In this document: piece after piece, positions 12,262-24,710 of the stretch
How the letters are laid out: every line of letters begins with the position of its first letter
Numbering within the stretch: the stretch's first letter is position 1
Assembly: GCA_020854235.1 (NCBI GenBank)
Contig: JADZFW010000071.1
Coordinates: 1 to 48,851 of the forward strand
DNA length: 48,851 nucleotides
Reading direction: 5' to 3'
Source of the DNA: Flavobacteriaceae bacterium
GTDB lineage: Bacteria; Bacteroidota; Bacteroidia; Flavobacteriales; Flavobacteriaceae
Notes under the pieces: model-generated
What the model saw: only the letters and a program-made list of their open reading frames with translations
Databases searched by the model: none
What the model was told of the DNA's origin: nothing
Position numbers and translations under genes: made by a program

Positions 12262-13155
12262 TTGGAAACTATCATACAACTTTTTAATTTAGATAAAAAA
12301 TACGGTGCCGTTCATGCCGTAAATAATTTGAGTTTTTCCATTCAGAAAGGCAATGTATATGGTATTTTGGGACCTAATGGGAGTGGAAAATCTACTACAT
12401 TGGGCATGTTGTTGAATGTGGTCAATCCAACCTCAGGAACATTTAATTGGTTTGATGGTCAAACCTCTACCCATGAAGCATTAAAAAAAGTCGGTGCTAT
12501 TATTGAAAGGCCTAATTTTTACCCTTATATGTCAGCAGCTCAAAATCTTGAGTTAGTTTGCAAAATTAAAGGTATAACAACAGATAAAATCAATGAAAAG
12601 CTTGAACTTGTAAATTTACTAGAACGCAGAAATGACAAATTTCGCACCTATTCTCTAGGTATGAAACAACGACTAGCTATTGCTTCTGCCCTACTGAACG
12701 ACCCTGAAATTTTAATTTTGGACGAACCCACCAATGGTTTAGATCCGAAAGGGATTCAAGAAATCAGAAATATCATCAAATTCATATCACAACAAGGAAC
12801 AACCATCTTATTGGCATCTCATTTATTGGATGAAGTTGAAAAAGTGTGTTCTCATGTTGTAGTTTTACAAAAAGGTCAAAAACTTTATGAAGGTCGCACT
12901 GATTTAATGACTCAATCACATGGTTTAGTAGAACTTAAAACTGAAGGTGATATTGAAAAACTCACATCGCTTTTACTTAAATTTGAAGGAATTGAAAAAA
13001 TTGAAAAAGAAAACGAAATGGTTTTAGCCTATTTGAATCTAGATATCAATACTGGACAATTGAATCAATATCTCTTTGAAAACGGTTTTGTAATATCACA
13101 TTTAAAAATGAGTAAACCAACACTTGAACAACGATTTTTAGTTTTAACTGAATAG
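12262..13155 (+). CDS. ABC transporter ATP-binding protein (BcrA/ABC-2 exporter type)
   Basis: A 297-residue ATPase with Walker A GPNGSGKST (37-45), the signature YSLGMKQRL, Walker B LILDEPTNGLDP, and a switch His in LLASHLLDEVE. The extra C-terminal 80 residues are typical of BcrA/CcmA-type ABC-2 exporters. It pairs with the permease at 13278, 122 bp downstream. The only usable start is TTG 12262, because an in-frame stop lies at 12247-12249 and the next ATG falls inside the nucleotide-binding core. The substrate is unknown; family members move antibiotics, lipids or peptides. Confidence 0.9.
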   Translation: METIIQLFNLDKKYGAVHAVNNLSFSIQKGNVYGILGPNGSGKSTTLGMLLNVVNPTSGTFNWFDGQTSTHEALKKVGAIIERPNFYPYMSAAQNLELVCKIKGITTDKINEKLELVNLLERRNDKFRTYSLGMKQRLAIASALLNDPEILILDEPTNGLDPKGIQEIRNIIKFISQQGTTILLASHLLDEVEKVCSHVVVLQKGQKLYEGRTDLMTQSHGLVELKTEGDIEKLTSLLLKFEGIEKIEKENEMVLAYLNLDINTGQLNQYLFENGFVISHLKMSKPTLEQRFLVLTE

Positions 13156-13277
13156 TTTATTCTCACAGATTTTAATCTTAAAATTATTTAACTAATACTA
13201 TTCCTTTAAATAACTTATATATTATCAATTTTAGATTTTAGAATTTAGAATTTGAAATTTAACTTATACCTAATAAT

Positions 13278-14108
13278 ATGTGGCGACTACTTCTAATAGA
13301 ATTACATAAAATAAAACATCATCGTGGTAGTAAATTTTTAATCATATCCTATTTTTTCTTATTAACCTCACTTGCATTGATTGCCTCAATTAAGTTTGAC
13401 ATTGGACCTGTAAAATTTCATTTAGCAGACCAAGGTATTTTCAACTTCCCATATATATGGCATCTCAATACTTATTTAGCAAGTATTCTTAAAATCTTTT
13501 TGATGTTGGTTATCGTATCGATGATGTCAAATGAATACAGTAACAATACATTGAAACAAAATTTAATTGACGGATTGAGTAAAAAAGAGTTTGTTTTGTC
13601 CAAATTTTATACCGTCATTTTATTTGGTTTTATATCTACCATTTTTGTTGCCCTAACTACACTGATTTTAGGATTGGTTTATTCAGATTATACTGAATGG
13701 GCTATCATTACTACTGATTTAGATTATTTGATATCCTATTTTATCAAATTAGTTGCTTTTTTTAGTTTTGGTTTGTTTTTAGGTGTTTTAGTAAAAAGAT
13801 CAGCATTTGCAATAGGAGCCTTATTCCTTTGGTTTATAGTAGAAAGTATATTTATTGGATTGATGCGTTGGAATTGGAAAATTGAAAATTACGATCATTA
13901 CACCCAATTTTTGCCGTTGAATGCGATGTCCAATTTGATAAAGGAACCTTTTACCCGTTTTAATGCCGTTAAATCGGTCGCTCAACAAATTGGAGAAACT
14001 ATACAAAAGGATTTTTCAGTCCAATTTACAGACATTATGATTGTAACAATATGGACTACAATCTTTGTTTATGGAACTTATTATATTTTGGAAAAGAGAG
14101 ATTTATAA
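13278..14108 (+). CDS. ABC-2 type transporter permease
   Basis: A 276-residue protein with about six hydrophobic segments (near 20-42, 70-90, 110-138, 155-172, 178-200 and 250-270), the layout of an ABC-2 permease of the bacitracin/lantibiotic-resistance kind. A cytoplasmic stretch EYSNNTLKQNLIDGLSKKEF after the second segment resembles the coupling region of this family. It follows its ATPase, and together they would form a homodimeric exporter in the inner membrane. The 122-bp spacer between them contains short AT-rich near-repeats (TTTAGAATTT-like) but no terminator. Confidence 0.85.
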   Translation: MWRLLLIELHKIKHHRGSKFLIISYFFLLTSLALIASIKFDIGPVKFHLADQGIFNFPYIWHLNTYLASILKIFLMLVIVSMMSNEYSNNTLKQNLIDGLSKKEFVLSKFYTVILFGFISTIFVALTTLILGLVYSDYTEWAIITTDLDYLISYFIKLVAFFSFGLFLGVLVKRSAFAIGALFLWFIVESIFIGLMRWNWKIENYDHYTQFLPLNAMSNLIKEPFTRFNAVKSVAQQIGETIQKDFSVQFTDIMIVTIWTTIFVYGTYYILEKRDL

Positions 14109-17646: not shown

Positions 17647-19812
17647 ATGGAAAAACAACAATTTTACTACGACAACAAAATTGTAAAAATGTTCTTCTGG
17701 GCAACAGTCCTTTGGGGTGTTGTAGGAATGCTGGTTGGTTTATTAGTGGCTTATTTGTTCTTATTTCCTAACTATTTGACGTTCGCTGGAGCGCAACCTT
17801 GGTTAGGATTTGGACGTTTGAGACCCTTACACACCAATGCCGCCATTTTTGCCTTTGTAGGGAATGGTTTCTTCTTAGGAATGTACTATTCAATGCAAAG
17901 ATTGTTAAAAACGCGTATGTTTAGTGATTTCTTAAGTAGACTTCACTTCTGGGGCTGGCAATTAATCATTGTCCTTGCTGCAGTTACGTTACCTTTGGGT
18001 ATTTCTTCTTCAAAAGAGTACGCAGAATTACAATGGCCTATTGACATTTTAGTAGTGTTGGTATGGGTTGTTATGGGAATCAACATGATTGGAACGTTAA
18101 TCAAAAGACGTCAACGTCACATTTATGTGGCCATTTGGTTCTACATTTCAACATTGGTCACTATTGCCATGTTGTACATTGTAAACAACTTGGAATTACC
18201 TATCGCATTGACTAGTATGAAGAGTTATTCTCTATACTCAGGGGTTAAAGATGCTATGGTACAATGGTGGTATGGACACAATGCCGTTGCATTCTTCTTG
18301 ACAACACCTATGTTAGGTTTGATGTACTACTTTGTTCCTAAAGCAGCCAACAGACCGGTATATTCTTATAGATTATCTATCATTCACTTCTGGACATTGA
18401 TTTTTATCTATATCTGGGCAGGACCTCACCACTTGTTGTATTCTGCTTTACCTGATTGGATTCAAAATTTAGGAACTGTATTTTCAGTAATGTTGATTTT
18501 CCCTTCTTGGGGAGGTATGATCAATGGATTATTGACTTTACGTGGTGCTTGGGATAAAGTTAGAGAAGATCCGGTTTTAAAATTCTTTGTTGTAGCTATT
18601 ACTGCGTATGGTATGGCAACCTTTGAAGGTCCGATGTTGTCTTTCAAAAATTTAAATGCAATTGCTCACTTTACAGATTGGATCGTAGGTCACGTTCACA
18701 TCGGTACATTAGGATGGAATGGGTTCTTATTATCAGGTATCTTGTATTGGTTAGTGCAAAAACTTTACAAAACTGATTTATGGTCAACTAAATTGGCTAA
18801 TTATCACTTTTGGATTGGAACAATAGGTATTTTATTCTATTCTATGCCATTGTACATTGCCGGATTTGCTCAAGCATTCTTATGGAAACAATTTGACGAA
18901 TCAGGAACTTTGGTTTATGGTAACTTCCTTGAAACCGTAACTCAAATCATCCCCATGTATGCCATGCGTGCTTTTGGTGGAACTTTATACTTTACCGGTT
19001 TTGTTTTATTAGCCATCAATTTACTTAAAACTGCAGCTATCGGTAGTAAAGTAGAAGATGAATTAGCCGAAGCAATGCCTTTGGAAAAAATCAGTGGACA
19101 ACGTGCAACCAAAGAAGGAATCCACACTTGGTTAGAAAGAAAAGTGGTATTATTTACTGTTTTGGCATTTATAGCAACTGCTATAGGTGGAGCCGTTCAA
19201 ATCATTCCATTATTGGTAGTAAAATCAAATATTCCTGAAATAACAAGTGTGAAACCTTATTCTCCACTTGAAGTTGAGGGTAGAGATATTTACATTCGTG
19301 AAGGTTGTAATAATTGTCACTCTCAATTGGTACGTCCATTCCGTTCTGAAGTAGAAAGATATGGTGAGTATTCAAAAGCTGGTGAATATGTATATGACTT
19401 CCCATTCTTATGGGGATCACGTAGAACCGGACCAGATGTTCATAGACTTGGAGGAAAATACAATGACAATTGGCATTTTAACCATATGATGGATCCACGT
19501 TCTACTTCCGAAGGTTCCATTATGCCAATGTATCCTTGGTTGATTAAAAACAAATTGGATTATAGCATGTTGGAAGCCAAATTGAAAGCTTTAAAAACTT
19601 TGGGTGTTCCTTATACTGATGAGGAAATTGCAGGAGCAAAAGCTAGTTTGGAAACACAAGCTAAATCTATTGAGCAATCATTACATCAAGATCCTGAATA
19701 TGTGAAAAACTATGCAACTAGTAATATTCAAGAAAAAGAGATTGTAGCTCTGATTGCTTATTTGCAACGTCTAGGTATGGATATCAAAGCTAACCAAACC
19801 GCTCAAAAATAA
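17647..19812 (+). CDS. ccoNO: cbb3-type cytochrome c oxidase, fused subunits I and II (CcoN-CcoO)
   Basis: A 721-residue fusion. Residues about 1-480 are CcoN with twelve predicted membrane helices and the metal-binding histidines in LHTNAAIFAF, WWYGHNAVAF, GPHHLLYSALP and VGHVHIGTLGWNG (haem b, haem b3 and CuB). Residues about 490-721 are CcoO: one membrane helix, the haem c site C554-NN-C557-H558 followed by SQLVRPF, and a Met ligand in IMPMYPW. The complex reduces oxygen at low concentration and pumps protons. Fusion of N and O is typical of Bacteroidota. The stop overlaps the ccoQ ATG by one base. Confidence 0.96.
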   Translation: MEKQQFYYDNKIVKMFFWATVLWGVVGMLVGLLVAYLFLFPNYLTFAGAQPWLGFGRLRPLHTNAAIFAFVGNGFFLGMYYSMQRLLKTRMFSDFLSRLHFWGWQLIIVLAAVTLPLGISSSKEYAELQWPIDILVVLVWVVMGINMIGTLIKRRQRHIYVAIWFYISTLVTIAMLYIVNNLELPIALTSMKSYSLYSGVKDAMVQWWYGHNAVAFFLTTPMLGLMYYFVPKAANRPVYSYRLSIIHFWTLIFIYIWAGPHHLLYSALPDWIQNLGTVFSVMLIFPSWGGMINGLLTLRGAWDKVREDPVLKFFVVAITAYGMATFEGPMLSFKNLNAIAHFTDWIVGHVHIGTLGWNGFLLSGILYWLVQKLYKTDLWSTKLANYHFWIGTIGILFYSMPLYIAGFAQAFLWKQFDESGTLVYGNFLETVTQIIPMYAMRAFGGTLYFTGFVLLAINLLKTAAIGSKVEDELAEAMPLEKISGQRATKEGIHTWLERKVVLFTVLAFIATAIGGAVQIIPLLVVKSNIPEITSVKPYSPLEVEGRDIYIREGCNNCHSQLVRPFRSEVERYGEYSKAGEYVYDFPFLWGSRRTGPDVHRLGGKYNDNWHFNHMMDPRSTSEGSIMPMYPWLIKNKLDYSMLEAKLKALKTLGVPYTDEEIAGAKASLETQAKSIEQSLHQDPEYVKNYATSNIQEKEIVALIAYLQRLGMDIKANQTAQK

Positions 19813-20000
19813 TGTTAAGTTTTATCAAACATAATTTTGATTCAATAGATGGAATAGGAATTTATCCTATGATTGCCATTCTCATATTCTTTCCCATATT
19901 CATATTTGCAGTAGCCTATGTGTTTGTGTTGAAGAAAAAATATTTCAATGAGAATGCCAACCTTCCATTTGAAGATGATGAAAACCTTTTAAACAATTAA
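19812..20000 (+). CDS. ccoQ: cbb3 oxidase subunit IV, CcoQ-like
   Basis: A 62-residue protein with one membrane helix (YPMIAILIFFPIFIFAVAYV, about 18-37) and an acidic tail (FEDDENLLNN). Its ATG shares one base with the ccoNO stop (TAATG), so translation is coupled. In other bacteria CcoQ stabilises the oxidase complex. Assigned by position, size and topology because CcoQ sequences are poorly conserved. Confidence 0.82.
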   Translation: MLSFIKHNFDSIDGIGIYPMIAILIFFPIFIFAVAYVFVLKKKYFNENANLPFEDDENLLNN

Positions 20001-20007
20001 AAATATT

Positions 20008-20718
20008 ATGAGTAACAACAATCAAAATATGAGTTTTTGGCAAAAGTTCATGAAATCCATGACCAAAGCCAATGATTTGGAACGCGAAGACGAAGTAATG
20101 CTCGATCATGATTATGATGGCATTAAAGAGTTGGATAATGTATTACCACCATGGTGGTTGTATGGATTTTATATCACTATCGGTATTTCTATTTTCTATT
20201 ATGTTGCTATCCATATTTTAGGATGGTATGGGCAAGAAAATGAATACAAAGAAGAAGTGGCTCAGTTTGAAAAATACAAAGCTGAAAATCCACAGTTCTT
20301 TACTACCGACAACCTTACTGCAAAAATGGATGCAGCAAGTTTGGCAAAAGGAAAAGAACTTTTTACTACAAAAACATGTGTTGCATGTCATTTAGTAGAC
20401 GGAGGAGGTTTAATTGGACCAAATTTAACAGATAAAAACTGGATTTTAGGTGGTGATTTCTCAAGTGTAATGAATACTATTGCTAAAGGAGGACGTCCAG
20501 GTAAAGGTATGGTAGCTTGGGAAAAAACTATATCACCTGAAGACCGTCAATTATTAGCCAGTTATGTATTATCCTTACAAGGAACTACTCCTGCAAAACC
20601 AAAAGCTGCAGAAGGAGACGTTTGGGAAAACGGTGTGAAAGTTGAAGCTCCAGTTCTAAATGATACAATTCAAGCAACTGATAGTATTTCTGTTGCACCA
20701 GTAACTGAAGTAAAATAA
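20008..20718 (+). CDS. ccoP: cbb3 oxidase subunit III, mono-haem CcoP
   Basis: A 236-residue membrane-anchored cytochrome c. The N-terminal part contains the CcoP signature EYDGI-like HDYDGIKELDNVLPPWW (about 44-56), one helix (about 55-75), then a periplasmic domain with a single haem c motif C124-VA-C127-H128 and a Met ligand in the GKGMVAWEK segment. Proteobacterial CcoP has two haems; a single one is, from memory, common in Bacteroidota. The C-terminal tail after residue 195 is low-complexity. It ends the operon at the terminator 20743-20773. Confidence 0.93.
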   Translation: MSNNNQNMSFWQKFMKSMTKANDLEREDEVMLDHDYDGIKELDNVLPPWWLYGFYITIGISIFYYVAIHILGWYGQENEYKEEVAQFEKYKAENPQFFTTDNLTAKMDAASLAKGKELFTTKTCVACHLVDGGGLIGPNLTDKNWILGGDFSSVMNTIAKGGRPGKGMVAWEKTISPEDRQLLASYVLSLQGTTPAKPKAAEGDVWENGVKVEAPVLNDTIQATDSISVAPVTEVK

Positions 20719-20742
20719 GTTATTTACTTAATTTAATAAATG

Positions 20743-20773
20743 AAGCCAGGAGTTATAACTTCTGGCTTTTTTT
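20743..20773 (+). terminator. Terminator after ccoP
   Basis: AAGCCAGGAGTT pairs with AACTTCTGGCTT (12 bp, one wobble) with a 2-nt AT centre, followed by T7. It separates ccoSNOQP from ccoG. Confidence 0.88.
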
Positions 20774-20809
20774 GTATCACTTGTTACGGTTTATTAATTA
20801 TATTTCAAT

Positions 20810-20817
20810 TAAATTTG
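20810..20817 (+). promoter_or_regulatory. Candidate -7 element for ccoG
   Basis: TAAATTTG, a full TAnnTTTG match 24 bp before the ccoG ATG and just after the ccoP terminator. No TTTG is at the -33 position, and I see no FNR-type box here. Confidence 0.5.
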
Positions 20818-20841
20818 TAGGTCTTTTAAATCACTTCTTAT

Positions 20842-22260
20842 ATGAGTACAAAATTTGATGAAAGTTTCCGCGATTCCATTGCCACTATCGATACAGAAGG
20901 GCATCGAAATTTTATTTATCCTCAAAAACCAGATGGACGATTTTATAAATGGCGTTCAATATTAAGTTGGTTTTTAATTGCTTTTTTGTTTGCCGCTCCT
21001 TTTATCAAAGTAAATGGGATTCAATTTATCCTATTTAATGTTTTAGAAAGGAAATTCAATATTTTTGGCTTTCCATTTTTTCCTCAAGACTTCCATTTAT
21101 TTGCACTTTCGATTGCTTTATCTGTGGTATTTATTATTTTATTTACTGTGGTCTTTGGTAGAATATTTTGTGGTTGGTTATGCCCTCAAACTATTTTTAT
21201 GGAAATGATTTTTCGTAAAATTGAATATTTAATTGAAGGAGATAGACCTGCACAGTTGAAATTGACACGTCAAGATTGGAATTTTGAGAAATTTTGGAAA
21301 AGACTTTTAAAATGGACTGTGTTTTTCCTTATTTCATTTATCATTAGTAATGTGTTTTTAGCATATATCATTGGAAGTGATAAATTGTTATTATACATCT
21401 ATGACGGTATTGGAAAACATCTTACTACTTTTATTATTTTATTGGTCTTTACCGGTATATTTTATTTTGTATTTGCATGGTTCAGAGAACAAGTATGTAT
21501 CATTGTTTGTCCCTATGGTCGTTTACAAGGTGTTTTATTGGATAATAATTCCATCAATGTTGCCTATGACTTTGTAAGAGGTGAAAACAAAAACGGTCGC
21601 GCTAAATTTAAAAAAGGTCAAGATAGAACAGCTGATGGTATAGGAGATTGTATTGATTGTAAACAATGTGTTTTAGTATGTCCAACAGGAATTGATATAC
21701 GCAATGGCACGCAATTGGAATGTATTAATTGTACTGCATGTATTGATGCTTGCGATATGGTTATGGACAAAATCGATAAACCTCGTGGGTTAATACGCTA
21801 TGCTTCAGAAGATCAAATTGAAACCGGACGAAAATTTCACTTCACACCTCGTTTGTGGTTCTATACATTCGTATTGACAGTTTTGATGGCATTGGTTACA
21901 GCATTATTGGTATTAAGAGGCAATTCTGAAACTATTATGCTTAGAATACCAGGACAAACCTTTTTAACTGATGAAACTAGTGTACAAAATGTTTATGAGT
22001 TTAAGGTGATCAATAAAGGCACTAAAGAAATTAAGGATATTTCCTTCAAACTTATTTCTCATAAAGGAGAGATCTTGAACAATAGTAGTGAACATAGTTC
22101 TATTAAAATTCAAGAAAAAGCAGAAGGTACTATTTTTGTTAAAATTCCTAAAAATGAGCTAAACAAAGCCAAAGAACGCATAAAATTAGGACTATATTCG
22201 GAAGGAAAACTGATCGAAACATTTAAAATTAACTTTCAAGGACCAATTGTTATTAAGTAA
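20842..22260 (+). CDS. ccoG: cbb3 oxidase accessory ferredoxin-like protein CcoG/RdxA/FixG
   Basis: A 472-residue membrane protein with about five helices in the N-terminal half (FCGWLCPQTIFMEM motif near residue 115, VCPYGRLQGVL near 220), two 4Fe-4S clusters in the middle (CIDCKQCVLVCPTG from about residue 270 and CINCTACIDACD about 30 residues later), another helix near 345-360 and a C-terminal Ig-like domain. CcoG helps copper handling in cbb3 assembly. It has its own promoter and terminator. The usual next gene, ccoH/fixH, is not present. Confidence 0.94.
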   Translation: MSTKFDESFRDSIATIDTEGHRNFIYPQKPDGRFYKWRSILSWFLIAFLFAAPFIKVNGIQFILFNVLERKFNIFGFPFFPQDFHLFALSIALSVVFIILFTVVFGRIFCGWLCPQTIFMEMIFRKIEYLIEGDRPAQLKLTRQDWNFEKFWKRLLKWTVFFLISFIISNVFLAYIIGSDKLLLYIYDGIGKHLTTFIILLVFTGIFYFVFAWFREQVCIIVCPYGRLQGVLLDNNSINVAYDFVRGENKNGRAKFKKGQDRTADGIGDCIDCKQCVLVCPTGIDIRNGTQLECINCTACIDACDMVMDKIDKPRGLIRYASEDQIETGRKFHFTPRLWFYTFVLTVLMALVTALLVLRGNSETIMLRIPGQTFLTDETSVQNVYEFKVINKGTKEIKDISFKLISHKGEILNNSSEHSSIKIQEKAEGTIFVKIPKNELNKAKERIKLGLYSEGKLIETFKINFQGPIVIK

Positions 22261-23763: not shown

Positions 23764-24054
23764 ATGACCATTTTTAAAGCAATATACTATTTCCATCTCA
23801 AATTATTTATTCCTAGTTTGATTGTTGGCATTATAACAGGAAGTTTGGGATGGATGGAACATGATCATTTTTCAATACAAAAAATGGCTTTTGGATATTG
23901 GATCACATCTCTATTATTTCACCTTTTCATATACGAAGTCGACAGAAAAAAAGAATATATCTTTTATTACAATTTGGGTTTGAGTAAATTAGTATTGTGG
24001 ATTTCTACTTTTGTCATCGGGTTGTCGTTATATTTAATTTCTTTACTATTATGA
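23764..24054 (+). CDS. Small three-helix membrane protein (96 aa), partner of LptB-like ATPase
   Basis: A 96-residue protein with three hydrophobic segments (about 14-31, 41-58, 73-95) separated by a short loop GSLGWMEHDHFS and a charged loop EVDRKKEYIFYYNLG. I do not recognise a family. Its stop TGA overlaps the start of the ATPase (ATGA, 24051-24054), a strong sign of coupled translation and of a functional pair. The charged loop followed by NLGLSKLVLW resembles, in length and place, the coupling segment through which ABC permeases contact their ATPase, but that is inference. Confidence 0.78.
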   Translation: MTIFKAIYYFHLKLFIPSLIVGIITGSLGWMEHDHFSIQKMAFGYWITSLLFHLFIYEVDRKKEYIFYYNLGLSKLVLWISTFVIGLSLYLISLLL

Positions 24055-24710
24055 GTGAATTACATATAGATAGTATCCAAAAAAGTTATAATAATATTCC
24101 ATTACTTACCGATATTTTTATCAGATGTAATACGGGTGAAATTATTGGAATATTGGGAAGAAATGGTAGTGGGAAAACAACATTAATGCAAATTATTTTT
24201 GGTTCAATACAAACAGAAAACAGATATATTAATGTTGATGGAAAAATGATACTAAATCAATTTGACCATATCAACCAAATTCATTATTTACCTCAATTTG
24301 ATTTTATACCACATCATCTCCGAATTAGAAACATTATAAAATTGTATTGCAACAAATTGAATACAGCTAAAATGTTTGAAAATCCAATTATTAAACCCTT
24401 GATTGACAAAAAGATAAATCAAATTTCAGGAGGAGAAAGAAGACTTATCAGCGTTTATCTTTTATTGTATTCAGATGCAAAATTCATATTATTAGATGAA
24501 CCTTTTAATGGAGTAGCCCCCATTCAACGCGAGAATATTCAAGAAATAATCCAAGAACAATCCCAATTTAAAGGCTTTATAATTACAGATCATGATTATA
24601 GAAGTATTTTAAAAATTGCAACTAAAACAATTCTATTACATGATGGAGGAACAAAAATTATTCATTCAAATGAAGAATTAGTAGAATGGGGCTACTTAAA
24701 TGAATTGTAG
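24051..24710 (+). CDS. LptB-like ABC ATPase without a conventional permease
   Basis: A 219-residue ATPase with Walker A GRNGSGKTT (36-44), Q-loop Gln82, signature SGGER (126-130), Walker B FILLDE (145-150) and switch His181. The stretch LLDEPFNGVAPIQRENIQEI followed by ITDHDYRSIL is strikingly close to LptB, the ATPase of the lipopolysaccharide bridge, as I remember it (DEPFAGV..P, ITDHNVR). ATG 24051 is preferred to an upstream start at 23997, which would overlap the 96-residue gene by 58 bp. No LptF/LptG-type permease is present; the only partner is the coupled three-helix protein. Substrate unknown. Confidence 0.88.
   Translation: MSELHIDSIQKSYNNIPLLTDIFIRCNTGEIIGILGRNGSGKTTLMQIIFGSIQTENRYINVDGKMILNQFDHINQIHYLPQFDFIPHHLRIRNIIKLYCNKLNTAKMFENPIIKPLIDKKINQISGGERRLISVYLLLYSDAKFILLDEPFNGVAPIQRENIQEIIQEQSQFKGFIITDHDYRSILKIATKTILLHDGGTKIIHSNEELVEWGYLNEL

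Follow-up and report, generated by a model that had tools for sequence, protein, structure and literature searches.

The window, the 48,851-nucleotide stretch of Flavobacteriaceae DNA analysed here, carries on its forward strand a small membrane-protein gene that overlaps the gene of an ABC ATPase. Both open reading frames and their ATGA overlap had been described in the original prediction and were recovered as such (96 and 219 amino acids). The features of the pair are as follows.

23764..24054, forward strand: small-protein gene, encoding a 96-residue partner with three transmembrane (TM) helices, predicted N-in/C-out (open reading frame; AlphaFold2, AF2; 300 aligned homologues; positive-inside charges)
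23770..23844, forward strand: TM1, residues 3-27, with a conserved F-Y-K at its cytoplasmic start (AF2; F 79%, Y 76%)
23875..23943, forward strand: TM2, residues 38-60 (AF2)
23947..23973, forward strand: putative coupling helix KKEYIFYYN, residues 62-70, running into the near-invariant N70-x-G72-x-S74 (AF2; N 98%, G 95%; LptF/G consensus)
23986..24048, forward strand: TM3, residues 75-95, where about two thirds of family members have Asp/Asn at mid-helix (AF2)
24051..24054, forward strand: ATGA stop/start overlap of the two genes (sequence; shared by 157 of 299 pairs)
24051..24710, forward strand: ABC ATPase gene, 219 amino acids, ATG at 24051 (open reading frame; PF00005; own clade)
24156..24179, forward strand: Walker A GRNGSGKT, residues 36-43 (sequence; K42 100%)
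24303..24311, forward strand: family-specific F85-I86-P87 after the Q-loop Q82, P87 standing in place of LptB F90 (alignment to LptB; F/Y 83%, P 96%)
24426..24440, forward strand: ABC signature SGGER, residues 126-130 (sequence; S126 99.7%, G128 99.3%)
24486..24503, forward strand: Walker B ILLDEP, residues 146-151, with the D-loop next (sequence; family conservation)

The overlap reads TATGAGTG, with the ATG at 24051-24053 and the TGA at 24052-24054, an arrangement from which we predict translational coupling of the pair. An acyltransferase gene (PF01757) precedes the pair on the same strand after a gap of about 126 bases, and genes for a carbon-nitrogen hydrolase and a methionine aminotransferase follow on the opposite strand. 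No linked permease was found in the neighbourhood of the pair in the window, and neither a promoter and terminator scan nor a count of TANNTTTG around the pair returned anything specific. Positions 12262-14108 of the window offer a contrast to this minimal pair in the form of an ordinary ABC exporter, in which an ATPase close to lantibiotic-protection/DrrA/GldA types (TIGR03740, 233 bits, below the cut-off of 309.75) is followed by an ABC-2 permease (PF12679).

The ATPase matches PF00005 with 76.8 bits (cut-off 25, E 3e-21) and, as originally claimed, has all ABC motifs, namely Walker A, Q82, SGGER, LLDEP and the H-loop H181. Conservation of the catalytic residues among 300 family members is 97-100%: the Walker A Lys stands at 100%, the signature Ser at 99.7%, the Walker B Asp and Glu at 99.3% and 99%, the Q-loop Gln at 99% and the H-loop His at 97%; the second signature Gly reaches 73%. 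Judged from this alignment, the catalytic residues are under strong constraint, barring a few degenerate copies such as L004; L004 and L100 (G040) have Glu for the Walker B Asp and Phe for the H-loop His, which makes this a catalytically doubtful copy. The family is further marked by F/Y-L/I-P 3-5 residues past the Q-loop Gln, by a C-terminal E-L-x4-Y-L, and by a D-loop that lacks its Asp (Ala in the window, Ser/Ala/Glu across the family) and has an invariant Pro (P157).

The ATPase had been called LptB-like, a description that stands as far as the nearest profile is concerned and fails as an identity. LptB (TIGR04406) is indeed its nearest NCBIfam profile, and LptB entries head its PDB profile list; the score, however, is 113 bits against an equivalog cut-off of 240. 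The same genome encodes a true LptB elsewhere; in the comparison with it that had been proposed, the true LptB reaches 373 bits with the same profile. Two LptF/LptG proteins are likewise encoded elsewhere in the genome, so that the earlier statement that neither is present holds for the window and not for the genome, which also has the true LptB2FG (type VI) system. In LptB, F90, R91 and R150 hold the coupling helices of LptF/G (PMC5548808, PMC5082905). Aligned to an E. coli LptB sequence consistent with the published residue numbering, the window ATPase has P87 for F90, H88 for R91 (K 36/N 21 in the family) and L137 for R150 (L 60); the essential groove residue F90 is thus a Pro in 96% of the family. 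In a tree whose backbone is poorly supported (51), the family appears as a separate clade (SH-aLRT 100) with a long stem and is not nested with LptB. On score, groove residues and this separate clade, we rejected an LptB identity.

We collected 302 non-redundant ATPases scoring above 160 bits, one of which (L188) is LptB and was set aside. Most loci were picked by the ATPase alone. The small gene lies directly upstream of the ATPase gene in 300 of the remaining 301, phylum-wide; its product was recognised by profile score in 299, with a weak score in one (L428), and was not recognisable in one (L445). This last locus, the sole family ATPase without a recognisable small gene, has stops in its upstream frames and is perhaps a decayed copy. 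Pairing of the two genes is a family trait far beyond chance. It bears out the conserved pairing across Bacteroidota that had been suggested for checking, and the small protein, which might have proved unconserved or unlinked in relatives, is conserved and linked throughout. Searching 60 related genomes with the small protein returned distant homologues, each just 5' of a homologous ATPase gene, the exception being one spurious weak match.

Profiles of both proteins were also run on samples of the phylum and of three families. At E 1e-50 or better, the ATPase was found in 130 of 397, 55 of 246 and 128 of 251 genomes of the three families, mostly in single copy. Named loci suggest that the sampled families include Flavobacteriaceae, the family of the window; the other two are presumably Weeksellaceae and Sphingobacteriaceae. 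Altogether, the overlapping pair is present in several hundred Bacteroidota genomes, and carriers identified by name include Flavobacterium, Fulvivirga lutimaris and an uncultured Flavobacteriaceae bacterium. A mobile-element origin was considered and rejected, as plasmids and phages gave no tblastn matches to the small protein, and PHROGs none; a defence system was likewise rejected, the PADLOC matches (mads_3 and others) being generic ABC/AAA.

The third co-occurring gene that had also been proposed for checking did not appear: in 119 loci with flanks, no linked gene recurs across clades. Flanking genes recur within clades only and are unrelated between clades, and the unit therefore consists of these two genes. 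This bears on the idea of a three-subunit transporter, in which the small protein would be an accessory and the real permease or substrate-binding component would be unlinked in every host. A bundle of three TM helices offers little for a transport path and split operons are common in Bacteroidota, both of which speak for it; yet a pair that is constantly tight, combined with a third part that is constantly unlinked, would be unusual, and we regard this explanation as improbable. Conserved and always linked, the two genes support the original proposal of a minimal two-component system of their own, with no normal permease.

AF2 modelling of the small protein with 48 homologues (pLDDT 92.8, pTM 0.81) gave the order TM1-TM2-short helix-TM3, so that the three hydrophobic segments noted earlier correspond to three predicted TM helices. 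In the family alignment (300 sequences, Neff 263 at 80% identity), mean K+R counts are 2.66 in the N-terminus, 0.38 in loop 1, 3.60 in loop 2 (TM2-TM3) and 0.55 in the C-terminus; this concentration in the N-terminus and the TM2-TM3 loop points to an N-in/C-out topology. Members are otherwise about 25% identical, and the most conserved positions cluster in the TM2-TM3 loop (Y68 85%, N70 98%, G72 95%, S/T74 85%, L78 86%), which gives a near-invariant cytoplasmic motif Y-x-N-x-G-x-S/T. Next come F10-Y11 at the start of TM1 (79% and 76%), position 11 being His in the window. Residue 86 in TM3 (24019-24021) is Asp in 44% and Asn in 24% of the family (203 of 300 together) and Gly in the window protein, and is a candidate functional or packing residue.

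The pair reaches another class of the phylum in L185-L187, which retain the arrangement of small gene and ATPase gene. Here D-N-L replaces N-x-G-x-S/T in the loop, with a Pro two residues on in two of the three, and the L187 partner, 14% identical to the window protein, is predicted by AF2 to have the same four elements (pLDDT 81.8). These divergent pairs may reflect an early split within the system.

No match to the small protein was found in Pfam, NCBIfam, PADLOC or PHROGs. A fold search of the PDB (Foldseek/VIA) was uninformative, giving only weak hits with E of at least 0.9 and VIA Z below 6, including farnesyl diphosphate synthase, EMC6 and Cys-loop receptors; LptF/G were absent from this match list. 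EMC6 and other three-TM subunits resemble the small protein as three-helix bundles of about 95 amino acids, but their Z of about 5.5 lies in the chance range for helical bundles, and they are eukaryotic and have no ATPase partner.

The loop helix of the small protein resembles the coupling helix of LptF and LptG, whose consensus, Φ----E-Φ-x-Φ-Φ---G, lies in the TM2-TM3 loop and is strictly conserved only at E and G (PMC5082905). The window protein fits this consensus exactly and in the same topological place (V59----E64-Y-I-F-Y---G72-L-S74). In its strict form, the consensus occurs in 96 of 300 partners, which are related sequences and hence not independent events, against 0.012 occurrences per 96 residues in 1,187 unrelated open reading frames; it is found in 28 of 31 LptF/G, 6 of 30 FtsX and 2 of 30 ABC-2 proteins. 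The consensus Glu is kept in only about 41% of partners, and the aromatic face and the Gly in most. Given this retention and the consensus fit, the loop helix likely acts as a coupling helix, as far as sequence and model can tell. The EVDRKKEY loop, singled out in the original prediction, is thereby supported as a coupling-helix look-alike, with an AF2 helix at residues 62-70.

Likeness to the Lpt system extends beyond this motif, the element order TM1-TM2-coupling helix-TM3 and an aromatic residue where TM1 begins being common to LptF/G and the small protein; in LptF and LptG, the TM1 aromatics Y6 and Y10, respectively, touch LptB F90 (PMC5548808). LptF/G differ in having six TM helices and a periplasmic jellyroll, compared with 96 residues, three TM helices, a short periplasmic loop and no TM4-6 in the small protein. 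No Pfam match to LptF/LptG (PF03739) was found for the window protein or among 26 members. In hhalign, the small protein scored 21-23 against LptF/G, with a local-shuffle maximum of 16. We did not accept this as proof of homology, because the signals are weak and the best alignment places TM1 on TM3; homology to FtsX or ABC-2 by hhalign was not accepted either.

These likenesses raise the question of an origin from Lpt. In that case, a duplicated LptB would have given rise to the ATPase and the N-terminal part of LptF/LptG, up to TM3 and about half of the protein, to the small protein (TM1-TM2-coupling helix-TM3), making the pair a reduced Lpt paralogue; this descent would be compatible with our preferred explanation below. 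Shared element order, shared coupling consensus and LptB as the best NCBIfam and PDB profile of the ATPase all fit such a descent. We nonetheless consider it unlikely: the ATPase falls outside the LptB group on its long stem (backbone support 51), hhalign reaches a probability of 32 at best, in one sub-window and with TM1 paired to TM3 in an unexpected register, and Foldseek gives no match to LptF/G.

Alternatively, the pair could be regulatory and rely on a permease from another locus, for example LptF/LptG, its small protein imitating a coupling helix or anchoring the ATPase at the membrane and competing with or modulating LptB. LptF, LptG and a true LptB are available in the same genome, the small protein fits the LptF/G coupling consensus, and the patchy distribution of the pair is not that of a core transporter. 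A borrowed LptF/G, however, would meet an ATPase groove altered at the positions that contact it (F90 to Pro in 96%, R91 to Lys/Asn, R150 to Leu), and no lpt linkage occurs in the loci seen; we judge the odds to be against this reading.

Two other types of ABC system were compared. FtsX/MacB/LolCE proteins (type VII), with known roles in mechanotransmission and lipoprotein extraction, resemble the small protein in that a coupling helix with a related E-x7-G motif lies between two of their TM helices, but they differ in their four TM helices and large periplasmic domain, and FtsX/MacB (PF02687) gave no Pfam match to the small protein and an hhalign probability of 2. ABC-2 exporters, such as the one at 12262-14108, also encode ATPase and membrane partner side by side; their permease, however, has six TM helices, profile comparison showed no similarity, and the hhalign probability for PF12698 was 0.1.

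We then asked what the two families reveal about their contact. Pairwise identities of partner and ATPase correlate with r 0.73, which common descent alone can give, and the total inter-protein information is 5155 compared with 5004 ± 8 in within-clade shuffles, a surplus that residual phylogeny can explain. Direct coupling analysis of 300 concatenated pairs (Neff 263) found no enrichment of inter-protein couplings between the coupling loop and groove positions; L71-F85 and L71-R130 are single plausible coupled pairs, and the top pairs look phylogenetic. In a charge test set a priori, an acidic partner residue 64 goes with a basic ATPase residue 88 (the LptB R91 position) in 58% versus about 26% (p 2e-8, raw), an association that is gone on phylogenetically independent pairs and contrasts on the tree. 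As the coevolution, fold-search and charge tests brought no confirmation, we rate docking of the loop helix on the ATPase as likely by anatomy and not as proven.

Taken together, we favour the explanation that the two genes encode one obligate machine, and think it probable that an ATPase dimer works with two or more copies of its own three-TM partner, which docks through the coupling helix. Presumably, the TM2-TM3 helix with its Y-x-N-x-G-x-S motif would sit in the ATPase groove beside the Q-loop and work as in type VI/VII ABC proteins (LptF/G, FtsX/MacB), with ATP binding and hydrolysis moving the small TM bundle of the N-in/C-out partner. With one coupling helix per partner, the simplest complex would comprise two ATPases and two partners, and would thus have six TM helices and no periplasmic domain. 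Such a 2:2 complex would be too small for a classical pore; with neither a binding protein nor a periplasmic domain, it seems better suited to handling lipids or to a mechanical role than to solute transport.

A bolder version, which we offer tentatively and hold to be possible though short of an even chance, is that the pair represents a class of ABC machines not recognised before and widespread in Bacteroidota. Its entire membrane part would be formed by the three-TM protein, as a homodimer or small oligomer in which every subunit contributes a single coupling helix and lacks a periplasmic domain. It would possibly be the smallest ABC membrane domain, acting as a lipid handler or pure mechanotransmitter. 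To our knowledge, known ABC systems combine two ATPase domains with membrane domains of at least four TM helices each (four in type VII, six in type VI). If the proposal is true, a three-helix partner with a coupling motif would be about the minimum for turning ATP hydrolysis into membrane movement, and the pair would reveal what a coupling helix alone requires. We found no description of such a pair in the open-access literature searched. The ATPase family adds a new branch to a known superfamily, and its membrane partner makes up an unclassified family. With the pair in a third to half of the genomes of two sampled families and a fifth in the third, catalytic residues intact and the small protein outside all Pfam and NCBIfam families, a common two-gene module has thus gone unannotated, and one that is easy to delete and purify.

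Several individual observations complete the survey. In L002, L009 and L190 (G001, same genus), a T9 run is followed by a frame break in the small gene, and the ATPase gene is intact; this break may be either an assembly homopolymer error or a real lesion. In L024 (Flavobacterium micromati), an intact small gene stands beside an ATPase gene broken into two frames that overlap. Elsewhere in the window, positions 17647-22260 hold a cbb3 oxidase cluster with a fused ccoN/ccoO (721 amino acids), CcoG and a cytochrome c-type subunit at 20008-20718.
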